Source: Brachyspira pilosicoli (GTDB lineage Bacteria > Spirochaetota > Brachyspiria > Brachyspirales > Brachyspiraceae). From it: 64,000 nucleotides of DNA. The DNA lies in the NCBI RefSeq assembly GCF_036997485.1, contig NZ_JAWLPU010000001.1, forward strand, positions 744,001 through 808,000. Direction: 5' to 3'. The notes under the pieces were generated by a model. The model was not told where the DNA came from. It did no database searches and was given only the letters and a program-made list of their open reading frames with translations. Below, piece after piece: positions 9,327 to 26,646 of this stretch. Every line of letters begins with the position of its first letter. Within the stretch, counting starts at the first letter, position 1. The position numbers and the translations under genes were made by a program.

Positions 9327-9359
9327 ATAATGAACCTTTAATAGTTTTAAAAAAAATTT

Positions 9360-10170: not shown

Positions 10171-10231
10171 ATATATAAAACCCTATTTAAAAAATATTTA
10201 AATTTAAAAAATTTTTAAAAATAAAAAATAA

Positions 10232-10609: not shown

Positions 10610-10685
10610 TTATATTTCTTCCTTTTGTTATTATTTATATACTGAAAATTTTGCATTTTATTAAAAATTATTTTTTACTTTAATT

Positions 10686-10883
10686 GTTTGCGGGGACTAG
10701 CCCCCGCACCCCCAGTTCTTTTGTTGGCACAAAGAACCAAAAAGACTGCATTTTTAGCTAAAATAAAAATATTTGCATTTTTTGCAACTTTGACGAAGTC
10801 CACACAGCAACCGAAGGAAGTGCCTGTGGGTGCGAAGGCGGGAAAAAGTTGATAACACTTTTATAAAATATAAAAATTGACAA
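10686..10883. repeat. GC-rich interspersed repeat, full copy (module 1 + module 2)
   Basis: Module 1 (10690-10760) has the self-complementary CGGGGACTAGCCCCCG hairpin and AGTTCTTTTG/CAAAGAACC arms. Module 2 (10774-10883) has TGACGAAGTCC, CCGAAGGAAGTGCC and AAGGCGGGAAAAAG, and ends in TTGACA. It sits inside the GTA head operon between two coding genes. Confidence 0.75.
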
Positions 10884-10905
10884 AACACAATCTTTTCAAT
10901 ATATA

Positions 10906-11205
10906 CTAAGCCTCAAGCGACTTTATCTTTTCCTTTAAGTTTCTATTTTCTTCTTTCAAATAATTTATCACATCATTAGGCTTCATCTTCTCGCGTACAA
11001 GCTCCTCTGACTCTTCTTTGCTTATTATTACAAAAGAATCTGTAAGAGAAATATTTAAATCACTCTCTATTAAAACTTTGCACCTTCTCTCATGAACATC
11101 TCTAAAAAAATACCCAACCTTAGCAACAACATAATCATTAGCCTTAATATCTTTATGAACTATACTATCGTCTACAAAATGAAGTAAAGACTTTTTATTA
11201 TTCAT
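10906..11205 (-). CDS. Small GTA head-region protein with C-terminal coiled coil
   Basis: A 99-aa product from the second ATG (11205), which is best spaced from GGGAG; an upstream TTG at 11217 gives 103 aa. The first 70 residues are a mixed alpha/beta domain; the last 25 (LKEENRNLKEKIKSLEA) form a coiled coil. It follows the major capsid gene and a terminator. Function unknown; neck or scaffold accessory roles are possible. Confidence 0.55.
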   Translation of the reverse strand: MNNKKSLLHFVDDSIVHKDIKANDYVVAKVGYFFRDVHERRCKVLIESDLNISLTDSFVIISKEESEELVREKMKPNDVINYLKEENRNLKEKIKSLEA

Positions 11206-11230
11206 CATCTCTCCCAAAAAACATATATAT

Positions 11231-11267
11231 AAAAAAACAAGAGAAGAAAAATAATTTTCCTCTCTTG
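11231..11267 (-). terminator. Strong terminator directly after the major capsid gene
   Basis: CAAGAGAAGAAAA (11238-11250) pairs with TTTTCCTCTCTTG (11255-11267) with one mismatch; on the minus strand seven T follow. It lies 23 bases past the capsid stop and would make downstream genes less expressed than the capsid gene. Confidence 0.75.
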
Positions 11268-11289
11268 AATAAAAAAATATTAAATATAA

Positions 11290-12339
11290 TTAAGCATCTG
11301 CTAATTTTAAATCTATCTTACAGAAGCCGTAAGGGTTAGAAGCTACTGTGCATCTCTTTGTTCTGCTTCTCCACAAATTGTTGCCCAATATATCAACTTC
11401 TCTTATATCATGATTTAAATACACAACCTCTTTTATAGAAGCCATATCCAAAATATTAGATGAAGTTGTAAACATATAAATAGAAGAACCTGTCCATATA
11501 TCAGTAAGGTTTTCTAATTGATACTTCTGTTCAATTTCATGGTCATCAGCAACTCTAAAAGCAGTACCTACAACTGTTATACCGCTTGTTACGGCATTAA
11601 ATATATCTGGCTTAAATGCTTTATATTTGCCGTCATTAGAATTGCCTATCATAGACACATAATTAGAAAATAATCTAAATAATCCCTGAAGCTTCACATA
11701 AACATCTATAGGTATCACTATATAAAGTTTCTGCCCATTATTTTGCACTTCCATCTGGTCATTAAACAAATTGCCGCCTACAGCATAATTTAAATATTTT
11801 GCCAAATCTATAAAAGAACTAAAGAAATTATCAATATCAGTTTCTGTCCAAGAACTTATTGCTTTAGCAGTTAAATCAACTGTATTAGAACTCCCATACA
11901 AAGAAGCATCTGTAACTTTTGCAGCTAAATTTCTTTCTCTCAAAAGTCCAAGCCTAGACACTAACTTCTGTGCTATGTAATTTAATATCTCTTCTCCTGC
12001 TTTTTTCTCATCTTTAGAATAAAGTTCATTAATCTCCTCTATTCTGTTTATGTCTATGCCAATATAATATTCTTCAGGCTCCATCTTAAAAACTCTTGAC
12101 TCATGTCTTGGATAATCATTAAATATATTAAGACCGCCCAAAGAAGTTCCGCCGTACATGTTTTTGAGATTAAAAGCAGTATTGTCTAAATCTCCGCCTA
12201 TAGCACCTTGAGAGACTCCTACAAAAATCTCTGGTATATATTTACTTACAAAGTTTGTCTGCCCCATATATTTTGGAAGCTCTTGATTGATTATAGGAAA
12301 AAGTTTATTTTGTATACTTTGAAAATTTGGTACGCTCAT
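11290..12339 (-). CDS. GTA major capsid protein, VSH-1 Hvp38-like
   Basis: A 349-aa protein, predicted about 38 kDa, matching the VSH-1 major head protein by size. It follows a decoration-protein-like gene and a protease-like gene, the usual order in lambda/HK97-type heads. Sequence features fit capsid proteins of the lambda gpE type: an N-terminal extended arm (FVSKYIPEIFVG), a long spine-helix region rich in acidic residues (about 105-145) and a beta-rich C-terminal half. AAGGAGT precedes the ATG. A strong terminator follows, consistent with high expression of the capsid alone. Confidence 0.75.
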   Translation of the reverse strand: MSVPNFQSIQNKLFPIINQELPKYMGQTNFVSKYIPEIFVGVSQGAIGGDLDNTAFNLKNMYGGTSLGGLNIFNDYPRHESRVFKMEPEEYYIGIDINRIEEINELYSKDEKKAGEEILNYIAQKLVSRLGLLRERNLAAKVTDASLYGSSNTVDLTAKAISSWTETDIDNFFSSFIDLAKYLNYAVGGNLFNDQMEVQNNGQKLYIVIPIDVYVKLQGLFRLFSNYVSMIGNSNDGKYKAFKPDIFNAVTSGITVVGTAFRVADDHEIEQKYQLENLTDIWTGSSIYMFTTSSNILDMASIKEVVYLNHDIREVDILGNNLWRSRTKRCTVASNPYGFCKIDLKLADA

Positions 12340-12361
12340 TATTACTCCTTATAATAAATTA

Positions 12362-12724
12362 TTAAATAGTTTTTAAAAGCACTTCTATATGAGAATTGGC
12401 ATTGCCTCCGCGAATAACTATGCCAACCCCATTGCCGTCTAATGACTTTTTAAATCCATCAACAGAAGGCACAACTATATCGCCTGCAACTAAATTCTCT
12501 GCCGCAACACAATTAACATTCCCACTATAGCACACAGATATGCAATTAGACTTAAGTCCGAAATCCACATAACTATATGCATCTTCTAAGGCAACCCCAA
12601 CAAAGGTAAACCCTTCTTCATATAAGGCATAAACTCCTTTTCCATCTTTATTTTTAATGGATACAGGAAAGCCTCTCTTTGGTAATTTATCTTCATCATT
12701 ACCTATGCCAGATTTTATTATCAT
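12362..12724 (-). CDS. GTA capsid decoration protein (lambda gpD-like)
   Basis: A 120-aa, glycine- and valine-rich beta protein next to the capsid gene, with the pattern of head-decoration proteins: an extended start, then VAAENLVAGDIVVPSVDG, then a C-terminal beta end. Predicted mass near 13 kDa fits the small VSH-1 head protein class. TAGGAG precedes the ATG. It lies 22 bases from the capsid gene. Confidence 0.65.
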   Translation of the reverse strand: MIIKSGIGNDEDKLPKRGFPVSIKNKDGKGVYALYEEGFTFVGVALEDAYSYVDFGLKSNCISVCYSGNVNCVAAENLVAGDIVVPSVDGFKKSLDGNGVGIVIRGGNANSHIEVLLKTI

Positions 12725-12791
12725 AGCGACTCCTAATATTATTTTATTTGTTTATATACACATAAATAACTATATTGTGTAATATAAGTTC

Positions 12792-12985
12792 TTTTATTCA
12801 ACTTTTTCCCGCCGCAAAAAGTTGCAAAAAGTGCAAGTTCTTTAGCTTTATATATTTGGAATATGTATAAAATCTAAGGTAATACCTATTTTTGAGCTTG
12901 AAATGCAGCCTTTTTGATTTTTTGCTACAGGTAGTATGTACTCTCTTCTGTCATAAAAAGAAGTGGTGGCGTGGCAGCTAGACCA
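12792..12985. repeat. GC-rich interspersed repeat, degenerate copy
   Basis: Module 2 reversed (12799-12836: AACTTTTTCCCGCCGCAAAA then GTTGCAAAAAGTGCAA) followed by a decayed module 1 (AAATGCAGCCTTTTTG at 12900 and AAAAAGAAGTGG at 12955). It fills the gap between protease-like and decoration genes. Confidence 0.55.
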
Positions 12986-12987
12986 TT

Positions 12988-13878
12988 TTATTTAAACATC
13001 CTTGAAATCTCTTCATACTTATTCTTACCCATAGCTGATAAACTAACTCTCTCATAACCTCCTACTCCTATAGGAACTAAATCATCTCTCACTATAGACA
13101 TTATTTCTTCTTTGCTTAAACCAGCCTTAAAAAGTTTTTTAGCCTTCACATAAGTATCGCTCTCAGATTTTGAAGAGCATCTTACTGCATTCTGACTTTC
13201 TGCATATTCATTACACCAATCACCATAAGTAATGGCAGATAAATTTGATTTTTCTAAACTCTTTTCTGAAATCTTAAACTTCTCTAAAAGTAAATCTATT
13301 ATCATATTTTGAAATACTTCATCATTTCTAAATATATTCAAAAACTCTTCTTTTGCTTTTTCTTTTGTTGCCTCATCATTAAGTTTATTTAAAATATTTT
13401 TTATGTTATTTATATACTCTTCATTAACTTCAATAACTCCGCTTGCACATAATAAATCAACACTTTTACTAGCAGGATATTCAACAGCAGCAATAGCCTT
13501 AATCTCACAATTCTCCCAATAAATAAACTCATCATCTTCTTTAACTTTTTTTCCAACCATCTCTATAGAAGGATAAAATGATTTTTTCTCTGTGATGCTT
13601 TCATCAAACCATTCTATAGTGGCATATATTCCAACAGCTTCATTATCTTTTTCTAACTTCAATACCTTACCAATAGCAGCTCTCTCTTCATCCTCTTTAT
13701 GACCCATATAAACAAACACTTCAACATTTTTTTTCTCAAATGAAGATATAATCTCTTCTACATTCTTCTCAGTAATCTTATTAGTTTTAGTTTCTGAGAA
13801 AGTATTTTTGGAAACAGCTATATATTGTTTAAAACTATCTCCAAGAATTTTATATTTTTTTACTTTGTTTTCTTGCAT
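12988..13878 (-). CDS. GTA head maturation protease / scaffold (putative)
   Basis: A 296-aa protein in the place of capsid protease-scaffold genes, between portal and decoration genes. The N-terminal half resembles phage I-like proteases (VYMGHKEDEERAAIGKVLKLE, then FYPSIEMVG, then IKAIAAVEYPASKSVDLL); the C-terminal half is helical and charged like a scaffold. I could not identify a catalytic triad with confidence. The frame extends upstream to 13962, but that part encodes NYKNYKNYNN-type repeats from a direct repeat, while the ATG at 13878 has AAAGGAG, so I use 13878. Confidence 0.6.
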   Translation of the reverse strand: MQENKVKKYKILGDSFKQYIAVSKNTFSETKTNKITEKNVEEIISSFEKKNVEVFVYMGHKEDEERAAIGKVLKLEKDNEAVGIYATIEWFDESITEKKSFYPSIEMVGKKVKEDDEFIYWENCEIKAIAAVEYPASKSVDLLCASGVIEVNEEYINNIKNILNKLNDEATKEKAKEEFLNIFRNDEVFQNMIIDLLLEKFKISEKSLEKSNLSAITYGDWCNEYAESQNAVRCSSKSESDTYVKAKKLFKAGLSKEEIMSIVRDDLVPIGVGGYERVSLSAMGKNKYEEISRMFK

Positions 13879-13976
13879 ATGGAATTCTCCTTTTTTATGT
13901 TTTATAATTTTGTAGTTTTGATAATTGTTATAGTTCTTATAATTTTTATAATTTTGATTCAAATTTATTTTTATAG

Positions 13977-14015
13977 AAAATAAAAAAGAGATTAAGCAAA
14001 AAACCTAATCTCTTT
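13977..14015 (-). terminator. Terminator between portal and protease genes
   Basis: AAAGAGATTA (13985-13994) and TAATCTCTTT (14006-14015) make a perfect 10-bp stem; on the minus strand it is followed by TTTTTTATTTT. It is 34 bases past the portal stop, inside the head gene row. Confidence 0.75.
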
Positions 14016-14049
14016 AATATATTTATAAAATATAGAGGATTATAAATTA

Positions 14050-15261
14050 TCAATCTTTATCTATTGAATGCCTAATCCTAAAATAATCGCATTCTCCTAA
14101 TAGCCTTAAACTCTTAAAATTCAAATCAAAGTATCTCTTCATAAAACTGTCATTTATATTATTGATGATGCCTTCAACAATATCACTTGCCATAAGTAAG
14201 GCGTTTGCTTGAGTGAGGTCAGCTAAATTTTTTGTTGCTCCTTTGTTCAACCCTAATGCTTTAATATCCACTCCCTTGTTTTTAAAAAGTGTTGAAAGCA
14301 TGCTATCTCTAAAGCTATACCATTCATTAGCATCTATACTCTCAATTTTCTCTATCTTTCCGTATTTTGAAATAAATATTCCGCCGCCATTATTAACAAA
14401 ATTTCTTATCTCCCTCTCAACCTCTTTTCTCTTACTGTCATTAAGCTCGCAATTTGACACAAAATTAAAACTATGCTCACCTATATTTTTTAAGTTCCTA
14501 TTAAAACTATTGTCCATAGATTCCAGCACCTGCCAAAGCGAATAAGCACTATACAAAAAAGGCTTTCCTATTACATCGCCTGTAATATCTCCATAATTAG
14601 AATAACCTGCTATTGCCAAATCAAAATTTATATTTGTAATAGTAGAATTATTTTTATTTATTATGCTAATAGATTCAATCTCATCAATATCTTCTTTTGA
14701 AAAATTAAAGCTATTTATAGAAGAAACATCATAAAACTTAAAACCTCTTAAACCGTCAAGCTTACCCTTAAATCCATAATTCTTTGCAGACAAAACTTCT
14801 AATTTCGGAGTAAAAAAACAAAAGCCATAAACCAAAGAATTATAAGCAGCATTAACTATTAAACTCTTAAGCCCTCCAGCTCTTTTAAATTGTTTGTCTA
14901 TAAAGTTGTAAGCATTTCTTACCTTTACACTCTCAAAATATTCATCTGTCTTTTCTAATTCATAATTAAAAGAATTAAAAATACCCCTATAAAATTGAAG
15001 TATTGGCTCTAAATAAATAGAGTTCTCCATTCTTTTACAAGTTAAAGCCCATTTGCTTGGAAAAGAAAAATCATCGCCAAAATCTCCTCTATTAGAATGC
15101 AAATCGGGCACTCCATTATAATAATTGTTTGTAGATATTTTATTTAACTCTTCATTTAGTTTTTCTATCTCTAAAGTCTTATCTTTTAATTTTGCATCAT
15201 AGCTCTCTATTATTTTCTCTATTACGGTTTGATTGTTTTGAGTTTCATTATTCTCAAGCAT
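14050..15261 (-). CDS. GTA portal protein, VSH-1 Hvp45-like
   Basis: A 403-aa protein (about 45 kDa) that begins the head operon. N-terminal coiled coil (about 15-45), then a portal-like body with WALTCKRMENSIYLEPILQF, a central YGFCFFTPKLEV strand, the crown/stem helices and a late ADLTQANALLMASDIVEG helix similar to the portal tunnel-loop region. Portals form the 12-subunit ring for DNA entry. The size agrees with the VSH-1 45-kDa head protein. CGGAGAA precedes the ATG. No terminase gene lies upstream; the previous genes are the lysis cassette. Confidence 0.7.
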   Translation of the reverse strand: MLENNETQNNQTVIEKIIESYDAKLKDKTLEIEKLNEELNKISTNNYYNGVPDLHSNRGDFGDDFSFPSKWALTCKRMENSIYLEPILQFYRGIFNSFNYELEKTDEYFESVKVRNAYNFIDKQFKRAGGLKSLIVNAAYNSLVYGFCFFTPKLEVLSAKNYGFKGKLDGLRGFKFYDVSSINSFNFSKEDIDEIESISIINKNNSTITNINFDLAIAGYSNYGDITGDVIGKPFLYSAYSLWQVLESMDNSFNRNLKNIGEHSFNFVSNCELNDSKRKEVEREIRNFVNNGGGIFISKYGKIEKIESIDANEWYSFRDSMLSTLFKNKGVDIKALGLNKGATKNLADLTQANALLMASDIVEGIINNINDSFMKRYFDLNFKSLRLLGECDYFRIRHSIDKD

Positions 15262-15286
15262 TTTTATTCTCCGTTTTTTAATACTT

Positions 15287-15320
15287 TATAATATATATAA
15301 AAAATATAAGTGATTATAAG
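15287..15320 (-). promoter_or_regulatory. Shared GTA promoter element upstream of portal gene
   Basis: A 34-bp sequence whose minus-strand core is TTATAATCACTTATA followed by six T and an AT-rich tail. It recurs with two differences at 24348-24381 upstream of the distal-tail operon, in both cases 26-27 bases before the first start codon. The TATAAT may serve as a -10 box; no good TTGACA lies upstream of it here, suggesting an activator or alternative sigma. Confidence 0.65.
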
Positions 15321-15330
15321 TAAATATTCA

Positions 15331-15655
15331 CCGCACGTTAAACAAAATAAAAAATATTAATAAAACGAAAATTATAATTTTTATTATAAATATAAGTTTA
15401 TTAACCGTGCGGAAAATGTATGCAAAGCAAATAAAAGCTTGGGTGGGTATTAACATTTCTAAACTAATACAAAGATAATTTAAACTACAATTTTAAAAAT
15501 ACACTATAAAAATAAAGGGCGGGGTATGTAAATAAAGTTTTAAAATTTAATTACACTTGCCCACCCTATATACTTTTTATACTATCTGTAACTTCTACAA
15601 TATTTTTCTTTTTAGTTTTATACTGATATTTTTACTACCCACCCAAATTTTATAT
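15331..15655. repeat. CCGCACG-hairpin structured intergenic element, copy 1
   Basis: CCGCACGTTAA (15331-15341) pairs with TTAACCGTGCGG (15401-15412). Then AAGCTTGGGTGGGTA (about 15436) pairs with TACTACCCACCCAA (about 15633), enclosing an inner AAGGGCGGGGTATGTAA (about 15515) / TTACACTTGCCCACCCT stem. The same layout occurs at 30745-31170. It fills most of the 420-bp gap between the spanin and portal genes; no gene seen there. Confidence 0.7.
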
Positions 15656-15682
15656 TAAATTTAGTCTTCATCTGCCGCCCAA

Positions 15683-15958
15683 TTAGTTTGAATTGCTATA
15701 ATAAAAATAATTGCTTCCCACTTGTACATTATACCAATTCTGCCAATGAGAAATTTTTATAGTGGCATCTTTATAGTTTTTTAATAAATCCTTTTTTGTT
15801 TTAACATCTCTTATAATATATATTGAAGGAGGAGGCGTTAAATCACAAACATTATTACTCACACTGCTGCAAGATAAAAAAAATAAATTAATCAATAAAC
15901 TAATTAAAAGAACTATAAAAATCTTTCTTAATTGTATCAACAATATATTTAGTTTCAT
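15683..15958 (-). CDS. Outer-membrane spanin lipoprotein (Rz1-like)
   Basis: A 91-aa product with a hydrophobic signal segment ending in FFLSCSS, a relaxed spirochaete-type lipobox, then a proline-containing start (DLTPPP) to the mature part. It begins inside the upstream i-spanin-like gene in another frame, the embedded arrangement typical of Rz/Rz1 pairs. GAGG is correctly spaced for the ATG at 15958; the upstream ATG at 15973 would overlap that site. Rz1 proteins pair with Rz to fuse inner and outer membranes at lysis. Last gene of the lysis cassette. Confidence 0.6.
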   Translation of the reverse strand: MKLNILLIQLRKIFIVLLISLLINLFFLSCSSVSNNVCDLTPPPSIYIIRDVKTKKDLLKNYKDATIKISHWQNWYNVQVGSNYFYYSNSN

Positions 15959-16229
15959 TATCCAAAACCTCATTAGTCATTTTATTAATAAGCATTGTAC
16001 TGTTTGAAAAACTTTTTATTACATCAATTTGTTTTTCTTTAAATATTAAATCTTTATATAAAAAAGAATTACTGTTATTAAGATAATCTATTTCTATTTT
16101 TAAGTCATCTATCTTTTTATTTTTACTTTGCAAACTTAAATTTAAAAATAAAATATAAGAGCAAACAATTAATACAAATAAAATTATATAAGTATTTTTA
16201 TTTGTGAGAATCTTTATTATTGCTATCAC
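15900..16229 (-). CDS. Inner-membrane spanin (Rz-like)
   Basis: A 109-aa protein with one N-terminal membrane segment (about 13-33) and a following coiled coil rich in Lys, Asp and Ile, the layout of i-spanins. GTG start with AAGGA nine bases upstream, inside the holin gene end. Overlaps the holin-like gene upstream and the lipoprotein gene downstream. It would span the periplasm with the Rz1-like lipoprotein. Confidence 0.6.
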   Translation of the reverse strand: MIAIIKILTNKNTYIILFVLIVCSYILFLNLSLQSKNKKIDDLKIEIDYLNNSNSFLYKDLIFKEKQIDVIKSFSNSTMLINKMTNEVLDNETKYIVDTIKKDFYSSFN

Positions 16230-16476
16230 CTTTAATATTCCTTATTATCAAACTCAAATCAACCCCATACATCACAGAAGAACATCCAAGCATAAATATT
16301 ATTATAGATATACTTGCTTCTTTGCTTGGTATTGTCTTATTAAAATAAACAACATAACAATATATTATTATACCGATTGTAAAAGTAATAAATTTTGTAA
16401 TAAGGCTTAATTTTTTTCCTATGCCTTTTGAAGAAAATATTTCATCTATTTTTTTATTTAAACTTTTATTATTCAT
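16198..16476 (-). CDS. Putative holin
   Basis: A 92-aa protein with two membrane segments (about 25-45 and 57-78) and a charged C-terminal tail (NNKDSHK), as in small holins. ATG at 16476 is preceded by AGGGTG; a GTG at 16485 overlaps the upstream gene by four bases. It sits between an XhlA-like gene and the i-spanin gene. Holins form membrane lesions that release endolysin. Assignment is from topology and context. Confidence 0.6.
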   Translation of the reverse strand: MNNKSLNKKIDEIFSSKGIGKKLSLITKFITFTIGIIIYCYVVYFNKTIPSKEASISIIIFMLGCSSVMYGVDLSLIIRNIKGDSNNKDSHK

Positions 16477-16481
16477 TACTA

Positions 16482-16946
16482 TCACCCTAACTTATTTGCA
16501 AAAAACACTATGCTACCTATAATTGTGCTAAGTGCAACTATTACAGCACCAAGTCCTATGATTATATTTTTTATTTTTACTATGCTCTTTGTTGTAATAC
16601 TATCTTGTAATGCAGATTTTATTTCTTTAATGTCAATTTTAGTTGAAGAGATTTCTTTTTCTATAAAACTTCTTGTATTTTGATGCTCTTTTAATATGTA
16701 TTCTAATTCTCCTAATTTAAATTTTATATTATTAACATCTTTATGTATGTCTTTTAAGTTTTCTTTATTTTCACTCATGTCTTTGTTAAAACATTCAAGC
16801 ATATTAATAATACCATTTCCATTTGGAGTACCATTATTATTTATACCCACTATTGTCTCTATTTGAGTTAATCTGTTTTCAAAATTATTTTTTTTATTAT
16901 AGCTTTTATTATAATTAAATATTTTTTTGTCCAAATTATTAATCAT
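16482..16946 (-). CDS. XhlA-like coiled-coil membrane-anchored lysis protein
   Basis: A 154-aa protein with a long coiled coil (about 25-120, heptads rich in Ile/Leu/Lys/Glu) and one C-terminal membrane helix (about 128-151), the layout of hemolysin XhlA-type proteins that accompany holins in Gram-positive phages. AAGG precedes the ATG. The gene follows the endolysin by 20 bases. It may also act as a pinholin partner; role inferred only. Confidence 0.55.
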   Translation of the reverse strand: MINNLDKKIFNYNKSYNKKNNFENRLTQIETIVGINNNGTPNGNGIINMLECFNKDMSENKENLKDIHKDVNNIKFKLGELEYILKEHQNTRSFIEKEISSTKIDIKEIKSALQDSITTKSIVKIKNIIIGLGAVIVALSTIIGSIVFFANKLG

Positions 16947-16966
16947 AAAATACCTTAAATATCTTT

Positions 16967-17545
16967 TTATAGATTTTCTATTTTTTTATATCTTTTAATT
17001 CTATCTTCCAAACCATTGTATCCGCCGTTAATCTTTTTAGTTACCTTTCTTATATCATCAACACCTAAAAGACCTCTATTTATCCAATAACAGCAGGCAA
17101 CATTAACAGCAATATTTCTCTCTAAAAGCCAATCAGGATTATTAACCAAATCAATATTAAGAAGTTTTCCATAATGTATATAATTGCTTTTTCCTGTAAG
17201 CTGTATTATTCCTCTTCCTCTATATTTATATCCCTCATCAAAATTATTGCCAAGCCTTCCTCCATATACTCTATTTGCAAGAGCTTCATCTCCTCTATAT
17301 AAAATATTCTTTGCCTCTTCAAGAGTATTAAAATATTTTGGAAAGACTTTTATTAAAACTTCTGGTCTATATTTAAAACTCTCCTCAAGTCTTTTATAAT
17401 TTAAACTCTCATGACTAGTTTGAGCCAAAAACATTTTTATATCTTTTTCTTTAGTAATGTTATAGGCAAGTAAATATTTTTTTAATATACTCTCCCAAGA
17501 TAAATCTATATTAAGTGCAACTAAATATTTTTTTATGTCAATCAT
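16967..17545 (-). CDS. Endolysin, glycoside hydrolase family 19 (chitinase-like)
   Basis: A 192-aa single-domain GH19-type endolysin, expected to cut peptidoglycan glycan strands. Visible features are TSHESLNYKRLEES with the likely catalytic Glu46, and YRGRGIIQLTGKSNY (about 108-122), the most conserved GH19 block. No signal peptide, so release needs the holin-like protein next to it. VSH-1 is known to lyse its host to release particles, which fits a complete lysis cassette. GAGG precedes the ATG. Confidence 0.85.
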   Translation of the reverse strand: MIDIKKYLVALNIDLSWESILKKYLLAYNITKEKDIKMFLAQTSHESLNYKRLEESFKYRPEVLIKVFPKYFNTLEEAKNILYRGDEALANRVYGGRLGNNFDEGYKYRGRGIIQLTGKSNYIHYGKLLNIDLVNNPDWLLERNIAVNVACCYWINRGLLGVDDIRKVTKKINGGYNGLEDRIKRYKKIENL

Positions 17546-17556
17546 ATATTAATACC

Positions 17557-18153
17557 TCATAATATTTTTTTGTACTGAGTTTTTATTTTAGCTCTAGTAT
17601 CTTGTAAACTATTTAATACACTAATTTGACTTTCATTTAGCAAGCCTTTTTCTGCTAAACTATTAAGCACATCGTCTAAAAGCTCCGCTCTCATACCATC
17701 TATATTATTAATATATTGACTTTGCCTCTGATTGACTATATAAGCGTTATACTCTTCTTTAGTGATCAAACTATCGTTGTATTTCTCTTCAATAGACTTT
17801 TCTGTAATATACTTTTTATAGTTCTTTTCTACTATCTTTTTATTTTTATCTAACTCTTCTAAACCCTTCTCAATTAAAATAATATAATCATCTTCATAAT
17901 TTTTATTTAATTCTCTTATAATTCCATTATCAATTATTTCATTATCTTTAAGAACAATAATTTTTTCTTTTAATTGCTGCTCTAAACTCTTTACTGTACC
18001 ATCTTTATTATAAGCTCTTATATCCGTCTGACTTAAATCATTACTATTATGCTCTTTTATAGCTTCATTAGGCTTTAACTTAAAATCATCAATACTCTGT
18101 CCTTCAACAAAATAACATCTATAAGTATCTTTATTATATATAGCAAATATCAT
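17557..18153 (-). CDS. GTA tail-region protein with coiled coil (unknown role)
   Basis: A 198-aa protein (about 23 kDa) after the large fibre-like gene, in the place of fibre-assembly or fibre-tip proteins. N-terminal 60 residues start MIFAIYNKDTYRCYFVEG; the rest is highly charged and helical (KYITEKSIEEKYNDSL region). Size fits a 24-kDa VSH-1 virion protein. GGAG is correctly spaced for ATG. It is the last gene before lysis. Confidence 0.55.
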   Translation of the reverse strand: MIFAIYNKDTYRCYFVEGQSIDDFKLKPNEAIKEHNSNDLSQTDIRAYNKDGTVKSLEQQLKEKIIVLKDNEIIDNGIIRELNKNYEDDYIILIEKGLEELDKNKKIVEKNYKKYITEKSIEEKYNDSLITKEEYNAYIVNQRQSQYINNIDGMRAELLDDVLNSLAEKGLLNESQISVLNSLQDTRAKIKTQYKKIL

Positions 18154-18154
18154 T

Positions 18155-20506
18155 TTAAACTCCTTCTATTATATCGCTCACTTTTTGACCGTTAATAGAT
18201 AATAGTTTATATATTCTTTTTTGGTAGTTGTCTACTACTAAGTCGTTTGTATATTCTTTTATTTGTTTATTTGTGTTCATATTTATATAGAAATATCCTC
18301 CACCAGTTAAACTTCGACCATCAATATAATATTCATAGTTTTCTTGAAGTGAAAATACACCTGAAGCGCCAATAAAGGCTGCCACAGGTGAATATGGATT
18401 TTTAGAGGAAATAGCTCCTGATAAATTAGGCATACCATAAGGCTGTAATCCATTAATACGAGCAACACCTGACTTTGAACCTTCTGTCCTAAAAAATGCG
18501 CTTTTATCATTAAATATTATTTGCCAAGTAGTAGCAACGTTGTACATCTTCTTAAACCAAACAGATGGCTCTTCGTTATTGTTAAAATTACCATTTACAT
18601 CTGGGTATTGTACATAATACGGAGCTATCATATATCTTAAAGCTAAGCTCTCTCCAAGTTCCTGAACATTTTCTACTGGTTTTAAAGCTTTATTTAAAAT
18701 AAAATTTTTATCTGGAGTTAAATTAAAAGTTATTTTTTCACCTGCGCTTATAATATCATCATCTTCATATTGTAAAAATAATAAATATACATCCATATCA
18801 TCTTTATTTGCTTTGCTTATAGTATATTTTATTAATTTGCCACTACTTGAAATTATACCTGTAGTATCTGAAAATTCAGTTTTTATGTTAAAATAATTTT
18901 CTACAATAGGATTATAAAAAATTATCTGAGCACCAGCACCTTCTTTTAAAGTATATGACCCTGATAATTTAACAGTATTATTATCTTGTACAAACTCTAA
19001 AATATAATTATCTATTATTGTTTGGCTTCCCATAAATGCTTCACTTAATCCAAATAAATATTTATCTTGATTTCTTAATTCTCTATTCTTTAATCTCAAA
19101 AAAATGTTAGACTCTAAAGGTACATTAATTATTTGAAGCAATATATTTGAAGAATTAAATACAAATTTGATTTTAGTATTTATATTTATTTCAATCTCTT
19201 CTAAATCATATAATTCATTAAAATTAAAAAACTGGTTTATAATAGAATAGTTTTTATAAATATTACTATCGCCATCTATAGATTTTATTATTAAATTAAT
19301 ATCGTTTTTATTTGTGTTTTCAATATTGCAGCTTAAAATATAACTTCCATCTTCTTGCTTTGTAATAGCTGCTATATAATTATTTGTACCGTCGTTAAGT
19401 AATAACTCAATATTTTCTGGTATATTATATTTAAATCTTGGAAAATCATATTCTTCTGTTTTATAAACTAAATTGGTTTTAGAATTATCATACAAAATAT
19501 TGTTCGCTAAATTTGAACTTCCAGTTGGAATTTTATTTTCTATATCTTTTTTTAATTTTTCTATGGCAAGCTGAAGATTATTTGTATTATCTCCGAAAGA
19601 AGTGTTACTATCATCATAAAATATATTAGAAGCTTTTGACAATATTTCTATTTTTTTATCTCTTAGTAAATTATTCCATACAGGATTCTCTGCATAGTCC
19701 AAAACCAAATAAAAAATTCCATTCTTTATTATTATTTGATTTTTGTAAATACGTTTAATACCATCAAACCAATTTATTATTTCAATTAGAGGCTTAACAA
19801 AATCGTAAATATCATTTTCTTCTCTATAAACAAAATTTTCACTCACTGCAAAAAACTTATTTTTATATTCTAAAATATCCCCTGCATTATAATTAATCCC
19901 AATTTCTAAACTCTTGAAAGGTGTAAGTATAGAGCAATTAGATTCTAAATAATAATCAGAATCATCACTTAAAAAATCTTTATTTACCTTATACAAATAG
20001 CCATTGTGTTTTATAATATCATTTATTTTATAATTAGTTTTATTATAATAATTTTTTATAGGATAATCTGTATCAAGACTATTAATCTTTTTTGCTATAT
20101 AATCAAACATCCAAGAGCTTAATGTTGTATTATAGGCTGTAATAGAATATTCAAATTTTTTATTTAAATGATTTATTGATAAAAAAATTATACTCTTAAA
20201 GTTAATATCATTTTTTATTAGGTATATTTTATTTTCTTCTACCTCTTCCAATTCTCTGATACAATTAATTTCATCTAATAAAACAGGATAAACTCTAACA
20301 CCATCTAAAATAAACTCCATTTCCTCTAAAGCACCATTTATACCGTATCCTATATCAACACAAAATAATTTCTCACCTTCAAAAACTTTTATCTGACTGT
20401 TATCCTTACTTAGTTGCAATGAATTATTTATTTTTTCTAAATTAAAACTATTCTCGCTTATCTTGTATTGAAAAGGAGCTTGTAAATTATTTTCATTAAG
20501 AAACAT
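18155..20506 (-). CDS. GTA large tail fibre/baseplate protein
   Basis: A 783-aa protein, the largest in the window's GTA. Mostly beta-rich, Asn- and Tyr-rich sequence with a carbohydrate-binding-like look; the last 190 residues contain a compact aromatic segment (QPYGMPNLSGA, then GGGYFYINMNTN) suggestive of a fibre tip or adhesin. It lacks the long helix and membrane segments expected of a tape measure, so I call it fibre or baseplate. One base separates it from the next gene. GGAG precedes the ATG. Confidence 0.6.
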   Translation of the reverse strand: MFLNENNLQAPFQYKISENSFNLEKINNSLQLSKDNSQIKVFEGEKLFCVDIGYGINGALEEMEFILDGVRVYPVLLDEINCIRELEEVEENKIYLIKNDINFKSIIFLSINHLNKKFEYSITAYNTTLSSWMFDYIAKKINSLDTDYPIKNYYNKTNYKINDIIKHNGYLYKVNKDFLSDDSDYYLESNCSILTPFKSLEIGINYNAGDILEYKNKFFAVSENFVYREENDIYDFVKPLIEIINWFDGIKRIYKNQIIIKNGIFYLVLDYAENPVWNNLLRDKKIEILSKASNIFYDDSNTSFGDNTNNLQLAIEKLKKDIENKIPTGSSNLANNILYDNSKTNLVYKTEEYDFPRFKYNIPENIELLLNDGTNNYIAAITKQEDGSYILSCNIENTNKNDINLIIKSIDGDSNIYKNYSIINQFFNFNELYDLEEIEININTKIKFVFNSSNILLQIINVPLESNIFLRLKNRELRNQDKYLFGLSEAFMGSQTIIDNYILEFVQDNNTVKLSGSYTLKEGAGAQIIFYNPIVENYFNIKTEFSDTTGIISSSGKLIKYTISKANKDDMDVYLLFLQYEDDDIISAGEKITFNLTPDKNFILNKALKPVENVQELGESLALRYMIAPYYVQYPDVNGNFNNNEEPSVWFKKMYNVATTWQIIFNDKSAFFRTEGSKSGVARINGLQPYGMPNLSGAISSKNPYSPVAAFIGASGVFSLQENYEYYIDGRSLTGGGYFYINMNTNKQIKEYTNDLVVDNYQKRIYKLLSINGQKVSDIIEGV

Positions 20507-20702
20507 ATATATTTACTCCAAATTTTTTATTATGATTGTTTATTATTTACAGATTTGTTTCAAAACATATTGAAAAGAATTAATATAAAAAGCTAGTTCT
20601 TTGTGAATCATAGCCAAAATGCAAATATGACAACATATAATTGTTAAGTTGTATATTGAAAATTTTTAAGTTTGTAAAAATCAAATTTTTAATTTTAATT
20701 AT

Positions 20703-20772
20703 TTGCAGGGCTTCGCCCCACACCCCAGTTCTTTTGCAGCCGCAAAGAACCAAAAAGGCTACATTTTTTATC
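20703..20772. repeat. GC-rich interspersed repeat, module 1 only
   Basis: GCAGGGCTTCGCCCCACACC, then AGTTCTTTTGCAGCCGCAAAGAACC and AAAAAGGCTACATT. It lies in the 350-bp gap between the fibre gene and the 292-codon tail gene; the rest of the gap shows nothing else I can name. Confidence 0.7.
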
Positions 20773-20856
20773 TTCATGTTTTTTTAATATTAATCTATAA
20801 CATTTGAACTTTTCATGAATCCTATACTACAAGGTTATAAACTTTTATAGAAACCT

Positions 20857-21735
20857 TTATTTGCTGCGTACCAAAAAATATAATGTAGCTCTTATACTAT
20901 TATTGCCGTTATTTTTTAAAGCCAACACTGGTTTCTTATCTTCCAAAATAGGAAAGCTCATTAAATTTGGAAGCCCGCTAAAATTGCCTATTATGTTTTT
21001 TTGAAACTCGCCTCCAAAATATTTATAGCTTGCATAACTTCCAAAATAGCCTATCAAAGGGGCACTATCAGAAATATCACTAAAAAGTCCAAATGAAGAT
21101 AAGCTTATAAGGGCATTAGTATCACCTTCTATTACTCCGCATACTTGTAAATACTCTAAATCTTCCCTCCAATTCAATACCCAATTTTGATTGCCTTCTC
21201 CTGTTTTTGTTATAACTTCTTTTAATACAAAAGTAGAATTATTTTTAATGCTTTCTATTTTGTTGTTTATATCTTCAATATATGAAGGCACTCCAATAGT
21301 TCTTTCAAACATATCATTAAGAACGGAACTTGTTATTGAAGTTGTTATATATCTTCCGCTTGCTATTCTAAATTTTTTGCCTGCATAGATTGAACTTAAA
21401 AAATAAGTACCTCTTAAACCTTCTTTGTTAAACCAAAAAACTTCATTTTCTTTGGGCATATATTTGTCATTTCCTATGTCTCCAATTATAGGATTTAAAT
21501 CTGTTATTTTTTTATTTGTGCTTGGGTCTATTACTTGAAGTATGGAATCATTCAAAAAAGAAAGTGAAGTAGTTAAAAGGCCTGTGCTTACTGCAACATA
21601 ATCAGCATTTTTAAATGGGCTTAAAAGAGGTATATCGAAATCTAAATTATGAACCTCTTGTAATGCATTCTCATCTGTAAATGGATTATAGGTGTTTGCA
21701 AGCCCGAAATAATTTAATATAGTTCCTGATGACAT
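20857..21735 (-). CDS. GTA tail protein (32 kDa class)
   Basis: A 292-aa protein between the tail-associated protein and the fibre gene. It has a short conserved start (SSGTILNYFGLANTY), a mixed middle and a beta-rich C-terminal part (GFGLF-type strands, ending FLVRSK). Predicted mass near 32 kDa fits a VSH-1 virion protein class. AAGGAAA precedes the ATG. Module 1 and module 2 of the interspersed repeat flank the gene. Specific role unknown; baseplate or fibre-adaptor is likely. Confidence 0.55.
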   Translation of the reverse strand: MSSGTILNYFGLANTYNPFTDENALQEVHNLDFDIPLLSPFKNADYVAVSTGLLTTSLSFLNDSILQVIDPSTNKKITDLNPIIGDIGNDKYMPKENEVFWFNKEGLRGTYFLSSIYAGKKFRIASGRYITTSITSSVLNDMFERTIGVPSYIEDINNKIESIKNNSTFVLKEVITKTGEGNQNWVLNWREDLEYLQVCGVIEGDTNALISLSSFGLFSDISDSAPLIGYFGSYASYKYFGGEFQKNIIGNFSGLPNLMSFPILEDKKPVLALKNNGNNSIRATLYFLVRSK

Positions 21736-21794
21736 AAAATTTCCTTAAGATAAATTTTTTAAAATAATAGAATAATAGATATATTATTTATATA

Positions 21795-21892
21795 CTTGCA
21801 CTTTTTGGTTCTTTGACGAAGTCCGCACCGCGAAGGCGGGAAAAAGAACAACAAAAAAATTGACAAACTTAAAATTTTTACTATATATTGAG
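21795..21892. repeat. GC-rich interspersed repeat, module 2 only
   Basis: TGCACTTTTTGGTTCTTTGA, CGAAGTCCGCACC, GCGAAGGCGGGAAAAAG, then TTGACAAACTTAAAA and TATATA. It ends about 30 bases from the 3' end of the next minus-strand gene. Confidence 0.7.
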
Positions 21893-21922
21893 ATTAAATT
21901 TGGTATTTTTATAGTTTATGAA

Positions 21923-23524
21923 TTAGCTCTCAGAATAGGTTAAAAGAGTCTCCAACTTCTTCCTTCGCTCTTCTTGGTCATATAAATAATTAGTGCGTTT
22001 TACATTCATCTTTGATAATTCCGCATCAACTGTTAAATGATTATTTTCAAACTTATAATTAATGCTCCTCACATTCATCTCTACAGTCTTAGAACCACAG
22101 TCAAAAAAACATATAAACTTCTCATAAAGTATATTGCTTCTCTCTGATGTTATTATAATATTTCTTTTGTCATATCCAGAAACATCAAATAAAGCAAAAC
22201 CATTTTTGCAATACTTTCTTTGCGTATGCTCTCCGTCTTCAACCTGAAACAATGCACTAACATTACTTTCTTTATCTTCTAAACCATCAGAAAAAAATAT
22301 AGCTATCTTCGTAATATTATAAACATGATTACATACATCTTTATAATATTTATCTATATCAGAAAGTTTCACACTATTTTGTTGTTTGTAGTTTGGATAT
22401 TTTCTTGTTTCTATTGCACTATCAATATCTATTATATCGCTTGAATAAACTTCATTTAAATGGCTTTCTATAATTGTAAATTCATTGAAATCTATTATTT
22501 TATAAAAATTGTTTGTGGGCTTTAATATGCACTCTACGCATTCATTTATATTAATATCTGTTAGGTTGTAATTTATGTTTTTTAGCTGAACGCTCTCTTT
22601 TTTCTCCTGATTAGTTAAAAACTGATAAGCATATTTATATGCAAGGTCATAATTTTCAAGCTTATAATTAAGTTCAAAAATATCTGTTTTTATGCCTATC
22701 TCTTTTTCTAATGGTATTGCAGGATATAGTTTATCTGCACCAACTATCTTTGGAAGAGCTCTATAAACTTCTTTAATTTCCCCATTTTCATCTGTAATGC
22801 TGTCTTTCATTTTTATTATATATCTGCTTACCAAATCTGAAGAATCCTCTGTATATTCACTCTCTGAAAAATGATTATTATGCCAATTAATTTTTTTAGT
22901 TGGAATGTTAGAAAACTCTTTAAAATAAAATGTATTATTAATATCAACACCCCAAGAGTAGCTTTTTGATATATTCTCTTCTACTTCATCGAGTATATCA
23001 GAAACATTCTTACCGCTAAAAGACATTGTTATTTGTTTATCGTTATTTAAATCAATGTTCTTCTCATCAAAAATTATTCCCATCTCTTCTATTTTTTCTC
23101 TAAGAGATAAAACTGTATCAAGAACACCTTTAGTAGATTCTAAAATTAAATCTCCTTGTATGTACTGATGAAGAAGCCTTCCCCATATAGGAATAACTGT
23201 AACATTTAAGCCAGAATTATCTATGCTTTCAATATAGCCTACAAATTTTTTATTGCCATTTAAAAAATATTCTACTTTATCGTTTATATTTATATTGTCT
23301 AATGTAATATTAAAACTTATTTTGCCAGAGCTTCCGCCTCTTTTATTTAAATTAAACTCATAGGTTTTGTAAAAGTTTTCTGTATATATTGTTTCTCTTT
23401 CTGTATAATATTTATTATTATAGTAGGGAATTATTTTTATATAGCTTCCTGTCTCTTCAAATTTTTTATATTCACTTGGAGGAAGTTTATATATACCGCT
23501 TAAAAAATGATAAGGCATAATCAT
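21923..23524 (-). CDS. GTA tail-associated (Tal-like) protein
   Basis: A 533-aa protein (about 61 kDa) after the Dit-like gene, the normal place of the tail-associated/hub protein. The N-terminal region (YTENFYKTYEFNLNK, then SGKISFNITLD) and the VIPIWGRLLHQYIQGD strand resemble phage hub domains that form the trimeric tail tip. The C-terminal third is beta-rich. No peptidase or lysozyme motif seen. ATG overlaps the Dit-like stop (4 bases). Mass agrees with a 60-kDa VSH-1 protein. Confidence 0.6.
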   Translation of the reverse strand: MIMPYHFLSGIYKLPPSEYKKFEETGSYIKIIPYYNNKYYTERETIYTENFYKTYEFNLNKRGGSSGKISFNITLDNININDKVEYFLNGNKKFVGYIESIDNSGLNVTVIPIWGRLLHQYIQGDLILESTKGVLDTVLSLREKIEEMGIIFDEKNIDLNNDKQITMSFSGKNVSDILDEVEENISKSYSWGVDINNTFYFKEFSNIPTKKINWHNNHFSESEYTEDSSDLVSRYIIKMKDSITDENGEIKEVYRALPKIVGADKLYPAIPLEKEIGIKTDIFELNYKLENYDLAYKYAYQFLTNQEKKESVQLKNINYNLTDININECVECILKPTNNFYKIIDFNEFTIIESHLNEVYSSDIIDIDSAIETRKYPNYKQQNSVKLSDIDKYYKDVCNHVYNITKIAIFFSDGLEDKESNVSALFQVEDGEHTQRKYCKNGFALFDVSGYDKRNIIITSERSNILYEKFICFFDCGSKTVEMNVRSINYKFENNHLTVDAELSKMNVKRTNYLYDQEERRKKLETLLTYSES

Positions 23525-24321
23525 ATTAAAACACCCCTTCTATATCTTATATAGGCATTTGTGCAAGTTTGATTGGTGCCTAAATAAAATATATTATCTC
23601 CAACATTAAGCTCTGGTCTTATGCCTTTATAATCATATATAACGCCATTTATTTTTAAAGTTTCTCCATCAAAATTAACTATGCATCTTTCAGTGTTTAT
23701 GTCATTTATGTTTGCCTCTATTCCAAAGTTTTGCTTGTTTGCAAATAAGAAATAAAGCTCATTTCCTATTATATTATCAAACTCTAAACTAAATGATACT
23801 GCAGTAGGAACTAAACTCAAAGATTTATAATATATATCTTGCTTACTTTCATTTGTAATGTTTAATTTATAAGTGTCTTCTTTTTGCCTTAAAAAAGTTT
23901 TATCTAAAGATTCAAGAGAAATATTTATAACGCCTAAATTGTTTATATATTTTACAGTATATCCCCCAACAGAAGTCATTATATATTCTGCCTCATAAAT
24001 CTCATTTTCAAACTCTATTCTTATAAAATATCTATTTGAGTTATTTGAAAGAATCATAGTGGTGTATTTTGTATATTGAGATTCTATTTTTACCCATTTT
24101 CCTAAATTATTTTTATATTCGAAAATAGGTATTGCAAAATCAAGTTTTCTTCCTGATGATATGATTCCTATACCAGATTTTATTGATGTATATTTATTAC
24201 CTTCTATTGTTTTTAAATCTACTTTTATATCTGATAATTTTATCTGAGAACTCAAATCTATTAAATCCAAAATCTCTTCATTATGCCCATTTCTAACAAT
24301 TAACTTAAAATTATATGACAT
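23521..24321 (-). CDS. GTA distal tail (Dit-like) protein
   Basis: A 266-aa protein, first gene of the distal-tail operon. An N-terminal belt-like part (to about 160) and a C-terminal domain ending in GDNIFYLGTNQTC and AYIRYRRGVLI, a common ending of Dit proteins. Dit forms the hexameric ring joining tube to tail tip. GGAGAG precedes the ATG. The preceding promoter element is shared with the portal operon. In a normal phage the tape measure would come just before; here an AT-rich regulatory region does. Confidence 0.65.
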   Translation of the reverse strand: MSYNFKLIVRNGHNEEILDLIDLSSQIKLSDIKVDLKTIEGNKYTSIKSGIGIISSGRKLDFAIPIFEYKNNLGKWVKIESQYTKYTTMILSNNSNRYFIRIEFENEIYEAEYIMTSVGGYTVKYINNLGVINISLESLDKTFLRQKEDTYKLNITNESKQDIYYKSLSLVPTAVSFSLEFDNIIGNELYFLFANKQNFGIEANINDINTERCIVNFDGETLKINGVIYDYKGIRPELNVGDNIFYLGTNQTCTNAYIRYRRGVLI

Positions 24322-24347
24322 ATTCTCTCCAGATATGTTATTTTTTA

Positions 24348-24401
24348 TATAATCTATGTAAAAAATATAAGTGATTATAAGAAATGTTAATAAACTGTTA
24401 A
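24348..24401 (-). promoter_or_regulatory. Promoter region of the distal tail-lysis operon with shared GTA element
   Basis: Minus strand: TTAACA (24401-24396), 16-bp spacer, TATAAT (24379-24374), inside the 34-bp block 24348-24381 shared with 15287-15320. The first gene starts at 24321. The shared sequence runs through the -10 and initially transcribed region. Confidence 0.65.
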
Positions 24402-24415
24402 TAAGTGCATAATAA

Positions 24416-24738
24416 TTATCAACTTGCTAACTAAATTTTAAAATAAATTTTTTATAAATTTTATTTTTGAATTTATGAAATTCATATAATTTGAGGTTTG
24501 TTTATATAAAATAACTTATCAACATCTTATAAAATAATTTTTTTATTTTCTTCTTATATATAAAAGTTATCAACATATTAACGTTATAATAATAACAATA
24601 AATTTTTAAAATTTAAAAATATATTATATTAATATATACAAGAGAATATAATAGTTTAAAAATTGAATTCAAATATAATAAATTATCTAATGAATTCAAT
24701 AATTAAATATGTTGATAAGTTGTTTATAATGTTGATAA
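24416..24738. promoter_or_regulatory. Cluster of five DnaA-box-like 9-mers in AT-rich DNA
   Basis: TTATCAACA-type sites: plus strand at 24416-24424 (last base T), 24516-24524 and 24567-24575; minus strand at 24710-24718 and 24730-24738. The last two are 20 bp apart inside an identical 12-mer ATGTTGATAAGT. Palindromes TTGAATTCAA (24663, 24819) and TGAATTCA (24691) lie between and beside them. No gene is visible in this 500-bp stretch. Confidence 0.6.
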
Positions 24739-24866
24739 GTTTAAATAAATATTATGAATTTTTAAGTAAAATTTATATAGTAAATTTATAATATAAATTC
24801 ATATTATAAATTCATTTTTTGAATTCAAAATTAGATTTTTTAAAATTTGTATGTTATAATAAAAAC

Positions 24867-25613
24867 ATGGGAAAAACTCTTTATACAAATAAAAAAATAA
24901 AGTTATTAATATCTAACATTATCTATGATATACAAAACTATAATTTCACAATATCCAAATATGTAGAAAACATAGATAAAACTGATGAAATAAATGAAGA
25001 TAAAGATTCAATTATAAGACAATCTTTTCTCATAAATATAACAATGAAAGCACTTAATGATTTTAATGATATAACTTTGGGTAATTTATCATTAAATAAA
25101 AATATAGACAATATAAATATTCTTATGAATAATGTAATAGATAATTGCTATAATTTATTTATTTCAAAAAGGGTAAAAATAAAATTAGGAGAAGAAATAA
25201 ACAATAATTTTAATGTATTGATAGATAAGAATAAGATATCTAATTCTATATATTACGTATTTTTATTTATTTATAATTCAATAAAATCTAATGGTTTTAT
25301 CGATGTATCATATAATTTTGTTAATTATGATGATGAAAGATTTTTATTTTTTAATGAAAATAATAATCTATTAAATTTTAGTAAGGATAATATTCTTATA
25401 AGTATTAGTTTTGATTCTAATAATATACCTGAAGATATAAAAAGAAAACTTTTCAAAACACCATTAATAAGTTATAATGGCAGATACTTTAATAATATAT
25501 TTTTATATACAGCTTACTATATGATTAATAAGCATTCTGGAAATATTTGGTTTGATAGTATAGGAAGTAAAAGAAGGATAAATATTATATTTCCTATAAA
25601 AAGTGGTTTATGA
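24867..25613 (+). CDS. Degenerate histidine-kinase-like ATPase domain protein
   Basis: A 248-aa soluble protein. Residues about 130-245 follow the order of a HATPase_c domain (N-box-like KISNSIYYVFLFIYNSI, then NNIPEDIKRKLFKTP in the place of the F-box, then INKHSGNIWFDS and a final INIIFPI strand), but the DxGxG and GxGxG glycines are missing, so ATP binding is doubtful. No phosphoacceptor His box. I use the ATG at 24867 (extended -10 TGTTATAAT six bases upstream, possibly leaderless) rather than the TTG at 24819. It overlaps the LuxR-type gene by ATGA and is divergent from the GTA. Confidence 0.6.
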   Translation: MGKTLYTNKKIKLLISNIIYDIQNYNFTISKYVENIDKTDEINEDKDSIIRQSFLINITMKALNDFNDITLGNLSLNKNIDNINILMNNVIDNCYNLFISKRVKIKLGEEINNNFNVLIDKNKISNSIYYVFLFIYNSIKSNGFIDVSYNFVNYDDERFLFFNENNNLLNFSKDNILISISFDSNNIPEDIKRKLFKTPLISYNGRYFNNIFLYTAYYMINKHSGNIWFDSIGSKRRINIIFPIKSGL

Positions 25614-26578
25614 ATTACGTATTTAATTATTTGCTTTTAATATTTTACTTATTATCTTTTGTAATAGGTTTTTCTACTATATTTTATTCTATTATTTATT
25701 ATGTAATAGAGAGAGTTTTATGGCTTAAATATTATATAATATTTTTATTTACATTCAGCATATTAATTTTTATAAGGACTATAAGACTAATAACACTTTT
25801 AACTCTACCATCTTTTACTTCTAACAATATTTTTAATATGCTTTATTTCTTTATATTAACTTTGGCTATGGCATTAATGCTTTATTTTATACCTGCATTT
25901 TTATACAGGTTTTTAAAAATAAAATGGAGTTTGAAAACTAATATATCATATTTAATTTTATCTGTGTTTTATTTTGTATTAAGTATTGTAGGAATACTCA
26001 CATCATTTAATATATATATTTTATCAAGTATGATATTTTATATATCTATATTTTACTTACTTATAAAAGGTTTTTTAAATTATAAAAATATAGAAGATAA
26101 AACAATTAAATTTATAGTGAAAGTTTTAGGTATAATAACTATACTAATTTATCCAGTTCTTATATATCAGCTAATTATTTATAGAAAAGATTTTATGAAT
26201 ACAAATTCTATAGATGTAACTTTAATGTTATTTTATACATGGTGGAATTTAGTGATGTTAGGATATTTATTATGGTATTTTATAAGTATGATAAAATCTA
26301 ATAATATGAGGATATCTAATAGTTTATACAATAATAATAATGATGGGGAAAAAGATAATAATATTAAGTTGGAAGAAAAATCTGATTATAATGATTTTAA
26401 TTTAACTAAAAGAGAGAAGCAAATATTGTCTTATTTATTATCTGGTAAAACGAATAAAGAAATATCCTTAATTTTTGATATATCATTAAATACTGTTAAT
26501 AATCATGTAGCAAATATATATTATAAATCTGGTGTAAAAAATAGAGTTGAACTTGTAAATAAATTTTCTAAGTATTAA
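25610..26578 (+). CDS. Membrane-bound LuxR-type transcription regulator
   Basis: A 322-aa protein with about seven N-terminal membrane segments (to about residue 230), a polar Asn/Asp/Lys linker and a C-terminal LuxR/GerE helix-turn-helix (about 262-318: LTKREKQILSYLLSG, KEISLIFDISLNTVNNHV). It should sense a signal in the membrane and bind DNA directly. It is translationally coupled to the kinase-like protein and lies beside the GTA control region, so GTA regulation is a reasonable guess but not shown. Confidence 0.8.
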   Translation: MNYVFNYLLLIFYLLSFVIGFSTIFYSIIYYVIERVLWLKYYIIFLFTFSILIFIRTIRLITLLTLPSFTSNNIFNMLYFFILTLAMALMLYFIPAFLYRFLKIKWSLKTNISYLILSVFYFVLSIVGILTSFNIYILSSMIFYISIFYLLIKGFLNYKNIEDKTIKFIVKVLGIITILIYPVLIYQLIIYRKDFMNTNSIDVTLMLFYTWWNLVMLGYLLWYFISMIKSNNMRISNSLYNNNNDGEKDNNIKLEEKSDYNDFNLTKREKQILSYLLSGKTNKEISLIFDISLNTVNNHVANIYYKSGVKNRVELVNKFSKY

Positions 26579-26593
26579 TTAATTTTTAATAAA

Positions 26594-26625: not shown

Positions 26626-26646
26626 ATAATTTTTAATTAATTAATT

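Follow-up and report, generated by a model that had tools for sequence, protein, structure and literature searches.

Three kinds of published work come close to the locus described here. In BUS-type origins, as in Bacillus subtilis (PMC6669920, PMC8287927), a DnaA box is followed by a spacer of at most 16 bp, most often 10-13 bp, and by at least three trios of the form NAN, and the spacer often holds a second, weaker box (PMC8287927). The run-off-replication origin of the Bartonella GTA lies near GTA genes, is phage-derived and amplifies one region, according to the accessible parts of PMC2697382 and PMC3610622 and in part to general knowledge. For Brachyspira, the origin was initially put at dnaA (PMC2650404, PMC2897892). 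The accessible parts of PMC3163572 and PMC3532143 relocate it by skew and Ori-Finder and state that it is unlinked to dnaA. As far as the accessible parts of these sources go, the B. intermedia PWS/A record was permuted to begin at the skew origin (PMC3163572), and the B. pilosicoli B2904 chromosome was linearised at oriC, with VSH-1 comprising orf2669-2692 of 2696 (PMC3532143). The positions given there are approximate, and the same parts contain no boxes, spacing, unwinding element or remark on the closeness of VSH-1 to oriC.

Here we describe a repeat array which we consider, with a probability of roughly 0.88, to be the chromosomal oriC of this Brachyspira. It is located in a 64-kb stretch of DNA, subsequently designated the window, which represents 744-808 kb of contig 1 of a 2.72-Mb genome and has a GC content of about 27%. 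The gene to the right of the array has relatives with 87-88% identity in records named B. pilosicoli, which places the genome in the pilosicoli group. The array shares its neighbourhood with the origins of PMC3163572 and PMC3532143, as far as their accessible parts show: in B. intermedia PWS/A (G009:C2) it is found at 11.3 kb, i.e. about 11 kb from the published origin, and in B2904 the published origin is a few genes away from VSH-1. Since the published origins lie near the array, the neighbourhood had already been predicted earlier. Descriptions of the boxes, of the unwinding module or of the proximity to the GTA were not found in the open-access literature.

The array and its probable unwinding module

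The array comprises eight TTATNAACA-type 9-mers on both strands within positions 24385-24738 (Table 1), more than the first-pass annotation had listed. The five sites reported there are present, i.e. F1 (TTATCAACT, one mismatch), F2 and F3 on the forward strand and R3 and R5 on the reverse strand, and so is the shared 12-mer ACTTATCAACAT at 24709 and 24729 with its period of 20 bp, of which a third copy was detected at 24514. The additional sites are weaker and correspond to TTATTAACA (R1, R2) and TTATAAACA (R4). Extreme AT richness had also been claimed, and the intergenic gap indeed consists of 87.5% AT.

Table 1. Features in and around the array; positions are those of the window.
Feature	Position	Strand	Remark
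VSH-1-like GTA structural and lysis gene cluster	7950..24321	-	tail-tube-like protein; endolysin; neighbour, outside the origin
Predicted GTA operon promoter, TTAACA-16-TATAAT (11/12)	24374..24401	-	consensus match only
DnaA-box-like R1, TTATTAACA	24385..24393	-	87% mean majority identity, 20 genomes
DnaA-box-like R2, TTATTAACA, 11 bp from R1	24396..24404	-	94% mean majority identity, 20 genomes; tandem pattern conserved
DnaA-box-like F1, TTATCAACT	24416..24424	+	91% mean majority identity, 20 genomes
DnaA-box-like F2, TTATCAACA	24516..24524	+	98% mean majority identity, 20 genomes
DnaA-box-like F3, TTATCAACA, proximal box of the unwinding module	24567..24575	+	98%, 20 genomes; BUS scan
Probable DNA unwinding element, 94% AT	24576..24640	.	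within the 92-bp genus-conserved block
DnaA-trio-like repeat TAA TAA TAA, 11 bp past F3	24587..24595	+	spacing rule of PMC8287927
DnaA-box-like R3, TTATCAACA	24710..24718	-	96% mean majority identity, 20 genomes
DnaA-box-like R4, TTATAAACA (TTATCAACA in several species)	24721..24729	-	
DnaA-box-like R5, TTATCAACA	24730..24738	-	95% mean majority identity, 20 genomes
Protein of a family without assignment, histidine-kinase ATPase-like by eye	24819..25613	+	adjoins the array genus-wide
Membrane protein with LuxR-type DNA-binding domain	25610..26578	+	Pfam GerE, 4e-18

Clustering of DnaA-type boxes in intergenic, AT-rich DNA, as expected of an oriC, exceeds chance. The 497-bp gap contains four exact copies of TTATCAACA against a simulated mean of 0.019 and eight one-mismatch copies against 0.60, and a first-order Markov model of the gap, simulated 3000 times, never reached the observed counts (0/3000 for both measures). 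All other 400-bp stretches of the window hold at most two TTATNAACA. Genome-wide, exact TTATCAACA occurs 122 times, and no similar cluster was seen among the matches listed (100 positions). Three of the five exact copies of ACTTATCAACAT in the 2.72-Mb genome fall into the array; the remaining two, one at ribosomal/rpo genes and one in a large ORF for an FtsK-like protein, lack a comparable cluster. The concern that the 9-mer might be equally frequent in other AT-rich gaps, raised in the first-pass annotation, was checked in this way and leaves the idea of an origin standing.

The core of the array reads TTATCAACA-TATTAACGTTA-TAATAATAA, in which TATTAACGTTA is the 11-bp spacer, and is followed by DNA of 94% AT. 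Tested against the rules of PMC8287927, it provides a box, a spacer of no more than 16 bp, at least three trios and AT-rich DNA. As in the BUS oriC of the B. subtilis type (PMC6669920, PMC8287927), DnaA-type boxes are arranged in tandem with the better one upstream, the 11-bp spacer coincides with the published peak of 10-13 bp, and at least three trios with a central A precede the AT-rich DNA; in many species the spacer includes an overlapping site, ATATCAACA. The array differs from this type in its box, which is TTATCAACA rather than TTATCCACA, in its trios, which are TAA (3'-AAT-5') whereas 3'-GAT-5' is commonest there, and in its location apart from dnaA. When 0.6 Mb of the window's genome were scanned with the strict BUS pattern, the array and two other places were retrieved, both of the latter having TTATAAACA as their box. 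Across 2.0 Mb from relatives, the pattern matched the array in G010, G011 and G004 and three other places, and no match was found at dnaA.

From this arrangement, together with the conservation and the skew reported below, we infer that DnaA binds the array, unwinds it and initiates replication there. Host DnaA would recognise TTATNAACA (mostly TTATCAACA), and DnaA bound to F2 and F3 would load onto the TAATAATAA trios, which lie 11 bp further downstream, and would open the adjoining 94% AT stretch. The R pair and the R triplet on either side would make up the rest of the DnaA complex. From here, forks would proceed both ways, leftward along the GTA operon and rightward along the regulator-like genes, co-directionally with these genes.

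Repeated GAATTCAAAATTTGAATTC-like palindromic pieces lie between the array and its regulator-like neighbour (24460-24860); they recur genus-wide and are possibly sites of another protein. Known RNA families were not found in 23000-28000.

Conservation of the array in the genus

The protein encoded to the right of the array (24819..25613), for which neither Pfam nor PHROG returned a match, was found in 24 of 26 Brachyspira genomes, and the array adjoins its gene in all 24, a contig edge cutting the array in a few draft assemblies. The LuxR-type gene adjoins the array in G004 and G010. Shared features of the architecture are the R pair with 11 bp between its sites, one or two F sites, a distance of about 51-53 bp where two F sites are present, and an R triplet with periods of 11 and 9 bp. 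A gapped tandem-TTATNAACA pattern matches 23/26 genomes, mostly only at the array, while the reversed control gave three matches in total. A 92-bp core likewise has its match at the array in 23 genomes, including G024, which is devoid of the tandem pattern. Columns within the boxes are conserved at 0.94 as compared to 0.78 for the columns between them, and further conserved runs comprise TAATAATAA and parts of the AT-rich block. Hence the array is present once per chromosome and is kept between related species, as is characteristic of an oriC, the exceptions being assembly gaps.

Apparent absences were inspected individually. At some loci the array had seemed to be missing and is there in reverse orientation. 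In G015, in which the right-hand protein was not found, a run of N cuts the LuxR-type gene exactly where the array is expected, and this genome was accordingly rejected as an array-less case. A match of the core in locus L197 of G015 was rejected as an array. In this locus (~1610-1720; G015:C8, ~2403.3 kb), GGATAAC units form a short, perfect tandem repeat in intergenic DNA. Finally, G003 lacks both the right-hand protein and the tandem pattern in an assembly of 990 contigs that is 88% complete.

GC skew, dnaA and box specificity

According to the first-pass annotation, a skew minimum elsewhere would speak against an origin. Skew was therefore sampled in 20-kb stretches per genome and a two-arm pattern was fitted; on these stretches the idea of an origin was not refuted. 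Skew and gene orientation turn at or near the array in G000, G011, G015 and, with dense sampling, in G010, and roughly so in G004. On contig 1 of G000, skew is negative in all 14 stretches to the left of the array and positive in six of nine to the right. The best-fit origin of G011 is at 1.87-1.88 Mb with the array at 1.886, and in G015, where the gap is about 50 kb away, skew turns at 2.20 Mb, going from -0.19 to +0.21. For G010 the best fit at 1.60 Mb (array at 1.596) requires a free terminus and denser samples near the array that were added afterwards, evenly spaced samples alone placing it at 1.96-2.11 Mb. In G004, in which the array is located at 1.673 Mb, the symmetric fit gave 1.61 Mb and the free fit 1.30, and the sign changes at 1.28-1.44 Mb. 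In the three closed genomes (G011, G010 and G004), the position of the array scored above shuffled values in every case, and dnaA gained support in none.

In the sampled stretches skew closely follows the gene strand, as the accessible parts of PMC3163572 also state for Brachyspira, and its resolution is therefore in the range of tens of kb. This resolution would accommodate a DnaA-titration or regulatory locus (datA/DARS-like) that is near the true origin but not at it, and a dense cluster of DnaA boxes is by itself no proof of initiation. However, the array exhibits the box-spacer-trio-AT order of an unwinding site, and the genome scans made revealed no second cluster. Such a locus is the least probable of the readings considered.

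Adjacency to dnaA is common to a subtype of oriC and is not defining. In the window's genome, dnaA is on a different contig from the array, and in the closed genomes it is far from it. The surroundings of dnaA in eight genomes revealed neither an array nor TTATNCACA, and canonical TTATCCACA boxes, of which the genome has 26, are unclustered and not above the reversed control. Two points speak against the origin reading: the array is away from dnaA, and its 9-mer deviates from the usual DnaA box in position 6. In all eight Brachyspira DnaA proteins read, the recognition helix is RDHAS. E. coli DnaA has RDHTT at the same place, and the Brachyspira proteins thus carry an alanine at residue 435. 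This residue is among the base-contacting positions (PMC5043019). Judged from sequence, the change fits an altered DnaA box, of which it is no proof. The best explanation is that TTATNAACA (mostly TTATCAACA), and not TTATCCACA, is the DnaA box of the genus.

Prophage-like loci of G012 (L046:1501-1551) and G019 (L053:1501-1551) each have five TTATNAACA-like sites packed into about 50 bp, next to or near genes for an HNH protein and a DnaC-like helicase loader. These arrays were rejected as second chromosomal origins, as they are part of prophage-like replication modules, and are candidates for phage origins that use host DnaA. Since a phage origin is expected beside a loader gene, these arrays provide independent support for the TTATNAACA box. 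The G019 loader (L053) gives a match to the Bac_DnaA model as well, and G004, G007 and G010 encode several extra short DnaA-ATPase-like proteins, which may be phage helicase loaders. A scan of viral contigs for the period-11 triplet yielded 25 contigs, none with a loader or a GTA capsid gene, and gave little information; two of the 25 carry a relative of the prophage HNH gene.

The GTA as neighbour of the array

In the window, the GTA cluster lies left of the array and is transcribed leftward, away from it. Array and GTA operon abut here and in three other genomes, all belonging to the pilosicoli group, in which 12-14 kb separate the array from the GTA capsid gene. This distance amounts to 40 kb in G010, 63 kb in G007, about 72-81 kb in G004, G005, G006 and G015, and about 113 kb in G009 and G025. 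In all 13 genomes with both features on one contig (G015 being included and placed by its gap), the capsid gene is no more than 114 kb from the array and is transcribed away from it. Thus, the origin is a fixed feature, and the GTA is its persistent, co-directional neighbour. In 13/13 genomes, the GTA lies close to the origin and runs with the direction of replication, an observation that looks new.

The first-pass annotation had considered either a replication origin, with the phage-derived origin of the Bartonella GTA as precedent, or operators of a GTA repressor. Like the Bartonella origin, as described in the accessible parts of PMC2697382 and PMC3610622, the array is near GTA genes; abutment in four genomes and a distance of at most 114 kb in 13/13 would suit a phage-descended amplification origin that fires only upon GTA induction, in a run-off manner, and raises the copy number of its neighbourhood. 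Unlike the Bartonella origin, however, the array is genus-wide and chromosomal, and it is present without an adjoining GTA. It does not travel with the GTA cluster but keeps its place next to the regulator-like genes where 40-114 kb separate it from the GTA, and because the same architecture is found there, the array is not GTA-specific. Moreover, it is retained in G001, for which a capsid homologue was not found. None of the adjoining genes tested was recognised as a replication gene, and the skew of the chromosome as a whole turns at or near the array. The GTA region had no megablast match in the phage collection. A GTA-specific origin is consequently extremely unlikely, and the origin proposal stands for the chromosome but not for the GTA or a phage, given that the array is fixed and that skew turns there and not at dnaA.

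The second proposal can be extended to an operator array through which a regulator, i.e. the LuxR-type neighbour or a GTA repressor, would act on divergent promoters. The location is intergenic and divergent, the same regulator-like genes always adjoin, and two sites overlap with a predicted GTA promoter. An operator of a GTA repressor would be expected only where the GTA promoter can be controlled, but the array keeps its place where the GTA is 40-114 kb away and the left-hand gene is a non-GTA gene. Furthermore, eight sites of either orientation, spread along 354 bp, together with a conserved trio/AT-rich block exceed the needs of an operator, similar arrays accompany helicase-loader genes in prophage-like loci, and the turn in skew would be left unexplained. 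An operator function as the main role is therefore not supported, and we rate this reading as very unlikely.

The chromosomal origin may nevertheless have a secondary regulatory effect on the GTA, which is possible because the promoter predicted for the GTA in the pilosicoli group shares sequence with two boxes: R2 contains the -35 hexamer, and the spacer contains R1. This promoter is the best promoter-like site of the gap, and the four pilosicoli-group genomes in which the GTA abuts the array all retain the -10 element. Promoter-like sites in the gap are no more numerous than in shuffles, and the overlap is therefore treated as a lead. A pilosicoli-group GTA promoter overlapping two DnaA boxes, predicted from the nucleotide sequence, looks new. 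If the promoter is real, DnaA at the origin would cover it; if so, DnaA loading would switch GTA transcription, and GTA production would be coupled to the replication cycle, or else to a block of initiation, e.g. upon DNA damage. We regard it as doubtful, though worth stating, that the GTA is kept near the origin and co-directional with it for dosage or packaging and is in addition controlled by a DnaA-switched promoter in the pilosicoli group.

Taken together, the array turns an approximate, skew-based Brachyspira origin into a defined element of 350 bp whose boxes, spacing and unwinding site can be tested. It speaks against the early assumption of an origin at dnaA and yields a genus-specific DnaA box. 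A defined oriC would also aid the construction of laboratory plasmids in a genus with few genetic tools. With a VSH-1-type GTA near oriC and oriented along the fork in every checkable genome, a link between replication and the GTA becomes directly testable.
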